Source of the DNA: Noviherbaspirillum cavernae
Lineage (GTDB): Bacteria > Pseudomonadota > Gammaproteobacteria > Burkholderiales > Burkholderiaceae_D
Assembly (NCBI RefSeq): GCF_003590875.1
Contig: NZ_QYUN01000002.1
Location: 3,224,001-3,288,000, forward strand
Reading direction: 5' to 3'
DNA: 64,000 nt
A model generated the notes under the pieces. It did no database searches and was not told where the DNA came from. It worked only from the letters and a program-made list of their open reading frames with translations. Made by a program: the position numbers and the translations under genes. Shown here one piece after another: positions 40,822-42,259 of this stretch; within the stretch, counting starts at the first letter, position 1, and each line of letters begins with the position of its first letter.

Positions 40822-41250
40822 TTAGAATTCTAGTGGCTGGGGTTGCTGTGCGGCGTGCGGGTGGGAACCACCTGCATACACCTTCAGCTTCTTGATCATG
40901 GCGTAGCCGAGCGGGCCCTTGGGCAACATGCCCTTGACTGCCTTCTCCAGCGCGCGCCCCGGAAAACGCTGTTGCATTTTCAGGAAATTGGTTTCGTAGA
41001 TGCCGCCCGGATAAGTCGAATGGCGGTAATACGTCTTGTCCACCGCCTTGTTGCCGGTCACGCGCAACTTGTCCGCGTTGATGATGACAATGAAATCGCC
41101 CGTGTCGACGTGCGGAGTGAATTCCGGTTTGTGCTTGCCGCGCAGTCGGCGTGCCACTTCGCTGGCAACACGTCCGAGGACTTTGTCCGTCGCGTCAATC
41201 ACGAACCAGCCGCGCTGTACCTCATGGGATTTAGCGGAGAAGGTTTTCAT
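40822..41250 (-). CDS. rplM: 50S ribosomal protein uL13
   Basis: 142 residues starting [20 protein letters not shown], with [21 protein letters not shown] and the C-terminal [19 protein letters not shown] and [12 protein letters not shown]. Early 50S assembly protein. First gene of the operon, with a strong sigma-70 promoter at 41368-41397 and a ~110-base leader. Confidence 0.97.
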
Positions 41251-41469: not shown

Positions 41470-41502
41470 AAAAAAAACCCGAAGCAATCAGGCTTCGGGT
41501 TT
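41470..41502 (-). terminator. Terminator of the candidate sRNA
   Basis: Minus strand AAACCCGAAGC/GCTTCGGGTTT, 6-base loop, T run of eight including the stem. It is upstream of the rplM promoter, so it does not end any known gene. Confidence 0.92.
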
Positions 41503-41578
41503 AAATCCACACCAAAAGAGGAGGGTGGAGGAGACAAGTGGTTGGTCGCTTCTGGATAACTCAACATTAACGACCAGC
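41470..41578 (-). ncRNA. Candidate small regulatory RNA with anti-SD motif
   Basis: An orphan transcription unit in the rplM-OsmC gap. A promoter (TTGCGT, 17 bases, TATACT) predicts a start at G41578; a terminator ends it at ~41470, giving ~109 nt. The 5' part folds with UGGUCG (41576-41571) pairing to CGACCA (41548-41543). The centre, 41534-41518, reads UCUCCUCCACCCUCCUC: two copies of a CCUCC core complementary to Shine-Dalgarno sites, in a loop bounded by CCAC/GUGG. The 3' end is a strong hairpin with a U run. This three-part plan is typical of trans-acting sRNAs in proteobacteria. I do not recognise it as a named RNA. The open frame that crosses it runs through the terminator and is not convincing. 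Confidence 0.65.
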
Positions 41579-41584
41579 AATTAA

Positions 41585-41613
41585 AGTATAGTCAAATTTA
41601 TTGTGCAACGCAA
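41585..41613 (-). promoter_or_regulatory. Sigma-70 promoter of the candidate sRNA
   Basis: Minus strand TTGCGT (41613-41608), 17-base spacer, TATACT (41590-41585); AT-rich spacer. It directs transcription into the sRNA only. Confidence 0.75.
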
Positions 41614-41815: not shown

Positions 41816-42259
41816 ATGGAATGTACTGTCCGTTGGACCGGCTTGTCCGGCATGACATTTTTGGCGGAAACGGGATCCGGACATGTGGTCGCAATGGACG
41901 GCGCACCTGACGGTGGCGGCCGCAACTTGGCACCGCGTCCGATGGAAATGGTGCTCGCGGGCACCGGTGGCTGCACCGCCTATGACGTGGTCTTGATCCT
42001 TCGCAAGAGCGGTCAAGACATCCGAGGCTGCGACGTTACTCTCTCATCCGAGCGCGCGGAAAAAGATCCCAAGGTATTCACCAAGATTCACTTTCACTTC
42101 TTGGTGCGCGGCAGGAATCTGAAATCCAATCTGGTTGAGCGCGCCATCAAACTATCCCACGAAAAATACTGTTCTGCGTCGATCATGCTGGAAAAGACTG
42201 CTGAAATGACGCATTCCTTCGATATCCTGGACGACTTGACCGAACCGTCGACCGCTTGA
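41816..42259 (+). CDS. OsmC family protein
   Basis: 147 residues. OsmC/Ohr-fold thiol peroxidase superfamily, YhfA-like branch: MECTVRWTGLSGMTFLAETGSGH, RPMEMVLAGTGGCTAYDVVLIL with the conserved first Cys in GGCTA, and HEKYCSASIMLEK with the second Cys. These two cysteines reduce hydroperoxides in active members. Cytosolic. ATG 41816 has AAGGCGAG upstream; a longer frame upstream has no SD. Confidence 0.88.
   Translation: MECTVRWTGLSGMTFLAETGSGHVVAMDGAPDGGGRNLAPRPMEMVLAGTGGCTAYDVVLILRKSGQDIRGCDVTLSSERAEKDPKVFTKIHFHFLVRGRNLKSNLVERAIKLSHEKYCSASIMLEKTAEMTHSFDILDDLTEPSTA

Follow-up and report, generated by a model that had tools for sequence, protein, structure and literature searches.

The small RNA (sRNA) gene analysed here, from Noviherbaspirillum cavernae, is a further member of the known anti-Shine-Dalgarno (anti-SD) family RF02278, and what appears to be new is a putative PhaR operator at its promoter rather than the family itself. 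Joining the evidence for this operator to the published titration of PhaR and to the induction of related RNAs in glucose medium gave a model of release by PHB. Taken as a whole, we consider it probable that this RF02278 sRNA is repressed by PhaR, released in connection with PHB and used to damp uptake and catabolism. The gene lies within a 64,000-nucleotide stretch of contig NZ_QYUN01000002.1 (positions 3,224,001 to 3,288,000), hereafter the window, to which the coordinates below refer unless a contig is given.

An RF02278 sRNA between rplM and osmC

Promoter, fold and terminator together delimit a predicted transcript of ~109 nt on the minus strand (41470..41578). A −35 box, TTGCGT (41608..41613), and a −10 box, TATACT (41585..41590), are separated by a 17-nt spacer and place the predicted start at ~41578. 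At the other end an intrinsic terminator with an 11-bp stem and a U tract (41470..41502) was recovered by a terminator scan, by the fold and by the conservation of its pairs. An initial annotation, made from the sequence alone, had picked out this promoter, a 5′ stem, the CCUCC cores and the terminator, and all of them are present in the minus-strand sequence or its fold. As far as sequence can show, it was right to read these elements as a free-standing sRNA with its own promoter, tandem anti-SD cores and a terminator, which would act by anti-SD pairing at ribosome-binding sites. The TTGCGT-17-TATACT promoter was absent from the list returned by our consensus promoter scan because its −35 box agrees with TTGACA at only three of six positions; conservation, rather than consensus score, supports the predicted promoter. 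A 62-aa open reading frame (41567-41379, minus strand) overlaps the sRNA and its terminator.

The same annotation described the sRNA as new and proposed a covariance search against Rfam. This search identified the double-hairpin core (41470..41536, minus strand) as RF02278, Betaproteobacteria_toxic_sRNA, a family with published work on relatives in Burkholderia cenocepacia and Bordetella pertussis, so the label 'undescribed' has to be withdrawn. The match scored 63.7 bits against a gathering cutoff of 50, covered the whole model (positions 1-64) and was the only one in the window to reach gathering level. It has the layout of the family, a double hairpin with CU-rich unpaired cores, and the identity is well supported by the sequence. 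Pseudomon-1/ErsA (RF01719) did not reach its cutoff (27.2 vs 50 bits).

The N. cavernae genome holds four RF02278 copies above the cutoff, three of them outside the window; its matches below the cutoff were left uncounted because 11 of 14 control genomes match at that threshold too. At E 1e-4 or better the family was found in 31 of the 40 relatives searched, with 6 to 24 matches in each of 14 genomes of the same genus, and at E 1e-8 in 116 of 300 genomes from a species sample of Burkholderiales. For Burkholderia three to five homologues have been reported (PMC5688073, in part). The matches can be clustered, with five in 15 kb of one genome (G019:C113:125971-140862) and three in 1.7 kb of another (G015:C1:4820824-4822497).

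The 111-nt sequence submitted to folding reached −37.8 kcal/mol (z −4.9), a stability equalled by none of 200 shuffles; its structure consists of a 5′ stem, a hairpin with CCUCC and the 11-bp terminator stem with its U tract. The 5′ hairpin (UGGUCGUU / AGCGACCA, 41543..41576, minus strand) is seen both in the minimum free energy fold and in the conservation of its pairs. Anti-SD site 1, UGUCUCCUCC (41527..41536, minus strand), is invariant at all but its first base among 18 chosen relatives, and site 2, CCUCCUC (41518..41524, minus strand), is invariant throughout in the same set. The two cores had been assigned to one central loop. Instead, the first is mostly single-stranded and extends into a stem and the second lies in the loop region of a hairpin, matching the RF02278 consensus fold. 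Conservation among relatives, on which the initial annotation had let its reading depend, was found in the invariant CCUCC cores of the 18 and in the terminator pairs kept by ten chosen relatives.

Standard pairs filled all 229 pair cells in these ten relatives, which were picked from 43 after inspection of their folds. All five pairs of the 5′ stem are kept in each of the ten, with changes on both sides in two of the five, and the terminator stem shows such changes in three of 11 pairs. The anti-SD hairpin never varies in the ten and therefore gives no evidence of covariation. Because the covariation count used sequences chosen after their folds had been seen, we added an unchosen test of all 43 leaders, a set gathered by the presence of an upstream TTGC-N3-GCA dyad. 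More stable than their own shuffles (z below −1.5) were 26 of the 43, and seven, including several short Herbaspirillum leaders, folded no better than shuffles; the 5′ hairpin is thus common but not universal. The N. cavernae leader itself lay below its shuffles in folding energy (z −2.4). The Rfam score, the paired changes in the 5′ stem and terminator, and the transcripts of relatives reported in Burkholderia, Herbaspirillum and Bordetella make it hardly credible that this intergenic stretch is rich in palindromes by chance and never transcribed.

Downstream of the sRNA is a minus-strand open reading frame (40822..41250) which we take to be rplM. It lies on the same strand, 220 nt further on, and the RNA could accordingly be pictured as a conditional leader of the rplM-rpsI operon, or as its attenuator, rather than as a trans-acting sRNA. 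We dropped this very improbable reading because a strong terminator ends the sRNA, because rplM has a promoter-like site of its own (41396-41367), as the initial annotation had held, and because over-cutoff cores stand at three other places in the genome and at many in relatives. On the other side lies a divergent OsmC-family gene (41816..42259, plus strand; PF02566), whose protein has its top record by E-value in Noviherbaspirillum autotrophicum (89%), with values up to 91% over fewer residues in other genera. By a simple pattern, 43 of 80 related osmC records have the sRNA upstream of the gene, including records from Herbaspirillum, Noviherbaspirillum, Ralstonia, Paraburkholderia and Burkholderia; the pattern had no match in the records of Collimonas, Massilia and Janthinobacterium, a few records being too short to judge.

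The sRNA may correspond by position to B. cenocepacia ncS27, a 92-nt RNA that likewise lies upstream of the neighbouring BCAL3349 in antisense orientation. ncS27 is one of four double-hairpin homologues with mapped transcripts in that species (ncS03, ncS05, ncS27 and ncS62), and processing can convert it to a short form (PMC5688073, in part). These RNAs resemble ours in the whole-model match, the CU-rich cores, the hairpin, the terminator and the several copies per genome, but differ in the sequence of the 5′ hairpin. According to the accessible part of a 2024 preprint, B. pertussis S17 has the conserved cores and a −35 box of TTGCAT, depends on Hfq and is cut by RNase E from a long to a short form. 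It is unlike our sRNA in its 190-nt long form, its genomic place and an expression tied to BvgA. Growth inhibition in E. coli upon expression has been reported for the family (PMC5688073, in part), whereas S17 was not similarly toxic (2024 preprint, in part). A Herbaspirillum study, seen in part, lists four RF02278 members among sRNA transcripts.

A putative PhaR operator over the −35 box

The −35 box sits inside a PhaR-type operator sequence, TTGCGTTGCACAA (41601..41613, minus strand), with the dyad TGC-N3-GCA, which we recognised from its genome pattern count and its recurrence at family loci. The dyad was absent from the initial annotation. Motifs with a TGC-N3-GCA core are published for PhaR of Ralstonia eutropha, Herbaspirillum and Sinorhizobium meliloti, where the mmgR promoter is bound. 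For Herbaspirillum the operator of PhbF was defined by EMSA and footprint, and reporter assays show repression of both phaP1 and the PhbF gene itself by PhbF. The PhbF and R. eutropha PhaR regulons thus share this dyad at PHB-gene promoters; they differ from the case here in that the accessible parts of those reports place binding at PHB-gene promoters only, with no sRNA promoter among them.

N. cavernae has its own phaR (PF07879 and PF05233; G000:C2:2124068), with a core dyad just ahead of the likely ATG start. The pattern TTGCRNYGCACAA occurs eight times in the 4.66-Mb genome and the reversed control pattern not once. Two of the eight sites precede Phasin_2 genes, one is at the sRNA and three fall within open reading frames. 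Near each of the two phasin promoters there is a second dyad, one of these with a mismatch. The last two of the eight sites (C2:2303929 and C2:2828293) stand, one ahead of a leuC-like gene of the aconitase family, the other in the region that leads up to an ETF gene; both genes are candidates for further PhaR targets.

The sRNA promoter site agrees with the operator core TGCRNYGCA. Against the full R. eutropha consensus it has three mismatches, a level equalled at 125 positions in the window, its outer flanks being a poor fit; against the full S. meliloti consensus it has one, equalled at 12 positions. The three over-cutoff paralogues of this genome carry one-mismatch dyads only, a level that 190 of 773 background windows also reach. 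We consider the presence of a PhaR operator at the sRNA promoter to be well supported as a prediction.

Recurrence of the dyad at RF02278 loci

We surveyed 140 regions around RF02278 matches, of which 137, from 99 genomes, were usable. The presence of phaR was scored by PF07879, and the 150 nt upstream were searched for a loose (YGCRNYGCR) and a strict (TGCRNYGCA) core. The strict core was found at 69 of 102 loci in phaR-positive genomes and at none of the 35 loci of 26 phaR-negative genomes, and the loose core at 82 of 102 and again none of 35. Counted by genome, the loose core is present in 68 of 73 phaR-positive and 0 of 26 phaR-negative genomes, and it occurs in at least one locus of each of the 17 phaR-positive families. 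Background windows of 150 nt from the same loci held the strict core in 32/614 (phaR-positive) and 4/205 (phaR-negative) cases and the loose core in 104/614 and 35/205. Shuffled phaR-positive upstream regions gave means of 11.9 (loose) and 3.5 (strict) per 102.

When the 64 inverted triplets were compared at spacing 3, TGC/GCA came top with 73 of 102 phaR-positive loci (2 of 35 phaR-negative), the runner-up reaching 15; over spacings 0 to 8 the same triplet peaked at spacing 3, with 73 loci against 30 for the next. The published consensus sequences also separated the two groups, that of R. eutropha at up to two mismatches (70/102 vs 1/35) and that of S. meliloti at up to one (59/102 vs 0/35), and did so more weakly at three mismatches (88/102 vs 4/35 and 97/102 vs 23/35, respectively). 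The best −10-like hexamer lay exactly 17 nt past the TTGC hexamer in 40 of the 82 core-bearing loci, the commonest spacing. In a second set, which shares some loci with the first and comprises four from N. cavernae and 29 from relatives, 19 of 33 had a strict dyad within 110 nt, against 14 of 773 background windows.

The loose core was absent from 20 of the 102 phaR-positive loci and from 4 of 43 osmC-locus copies. Some dyads fall within the expected transcribed leader (L139 and, judged by position, L107, L114, L088, L101 and L116, the last three from Ralstonia). The ncS27-type gene of G307, a Burkholderia-like genome, therefore seems, unlike the N. cavernae gene, to have no operator dyad at its promoter. 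For three B. cenocepacia homologues a 'common upstream motif' has been described (PMC5688073), which may be the same dyad.

Fisher p-values for the contrast between phaR-positive and phaR-negative loci take no account of relatedness. An rpoB tree covering 50 of the 99 genomes shows four changes of phaR and seven of the site. The phaR-negative/no-site contrast has three independent pairs on supported branches (four on all branches), and of the three, one to three agree and none is against; the sign test on these pairs was not significant, and with only three independent pairs the contrast cannot reach significance after tree correction. Two genera are mixed. In one (g113) the phaR-positive genome has the site and the phaR-negative genome does not; in the other (g76) one phaR-positive genome has it, and a second phaR-positive genome and the phaR-negative one are without it.

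It is possible that the dyad is bound by some other regulator, or is simply a conserved promoter element, and that PHB is not in control. A promoter suffices to account for the TTGC half alone, because 20 of the 35 phaR-negative loci keep the TTGC hexamer and a spaced −10-like box without the dyad. The second half-site, GCACAA, is to our knowledge outside the usual sigma-70 elements, which counts against this explanation, as does the occurrence of the TTGCRNYGCACAA pattern at two phasin genes of the same genome. Moreover, in four short-form paralogues (L020, L022, L033 and L035) the strict dyad stands at −21 or −22 and not at −35. We therefore regard control by something other than PhaR as unlikely, if still worth bearing in mind, and lean towards a wider reading of PhaR control. 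In PHB-making Burkholderiales most RF02278 RNAs would belong to a PhaR regulon that lowers uptake and catabolism when the store is full, and lineages without phaR would keep the RNA without the operator.

Two further sequence elements were seen. A ATATTAGA..CTAAT palindrome lies near the −10 box at 14 of the 35 phaR-negative loci (for example L182, L227, L249 and L256) and at 0 of 102 phaR-positive loci, and may be an operator that takes the place of the dyad, or else the mark of a clade. Several short-form paralogues of the same genus (L002, L004 and others) carry a box like CTGTTATCACCACAATAAAGCAGAC upstream, and around −22 they also have a dyad or a near match to one; a second regulator may act at this box.

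A proposed link to PHB and candidate targets

Under the model we favour, PhaR, encoded elsewhere in the genome, would repress the sRNA by binding the dyad over the −35 box. When PHB is made, the granules would titrate PhaR away, a step that is published for the phasin genes of other species, and the level of the sRNA would rise. With its two C/U-rich cores the sRNA would pair with the ribosome-binding sites of mRNAs for uptake and catabolism and prevent their translation, and the uptake and use of further substrates would be damped. Such a block has been shown for one target of S17, which was repressed directly in a reporter assay, with pairing in its 5′UTR (2024 preprint, in part), and is predicted for other targets.

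The accessible text on the B. cenocepacia homologues (PMC5688073) reports that ncS03, ncS05 and ncS27 rise 8.0-, 6.9- and 4.3-fold in glucose medium. A point against a link to glucose and PHB is that the strongest rise of ncS27, 9.7-fold, was in biofilm. In the same report, overexpression of ncS27 slows growth, an antisense to the CU region speeds it, and 55-80% of the predicted interactions of the homologues fall around gene starts. A 2024 review, seen in part, has ncS27 balancing a metabolic shutdown upon nutrient deprivation. The trigger for accumulation of the double-hairpin RNAs was called unknown in 2017 (PMC5688073, in part), and control by PhaR could explain what switches on these conserved 'toxic' or double-hairpin sRNAs.

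The putative pairing of PhaR with RF02278 has a parallel in the PhaR-MmgR pair of the alphaproteobacterium S. meliloti. MmgR is an Hfq-dependent, PHB-linked sRNA whose promoter is bound and repressed by PhaR (AniA), according to the parts of that work available, although it belongs to the alphaproteobacterial alpha-r8 family and is also under NtrC. If the model is true, PhaR governs a PHB-linked sRNA in alphaproteobacteria and betaproteobacteria alike, and carbon storage is wired directly to the translational repression of many genes. MmgR, too, carries anti-SD motifs. Literature searches, which largely covered papers outside subscription, showed no link between PhaR and RF02278 among the results listed. 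The word PhaR does not occur in the accessible text of the S17 preprint, the 2024 review or PMC5688073, nor 'sRNA' or 'small RNA' in that of the R. eutropha PhaR paper.

To compare candidate targets in the window, duplex energies with anti-SD site 1 were ranked as percentiles of random 31-mers at eight named starts. A ranking of the whole window by duplex energy was set aside, as alternative start codons favoured chance matches. The two neighbouring porins, which the initial annotation had put forward, gave start-region duplexes at the 28th and 25th percentile and are not borne out as targets. Its other suggestion, a gene that we presume to be gltI and to encode an amino-acid binding protein, remains plausible, being the only one of the eight starts to stand out (−12.1 kcal/mol, 2.4th percentile). 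An amino-acid binding protein of the gltI type would be in keeping with the transporter targets that have been described in relatives.
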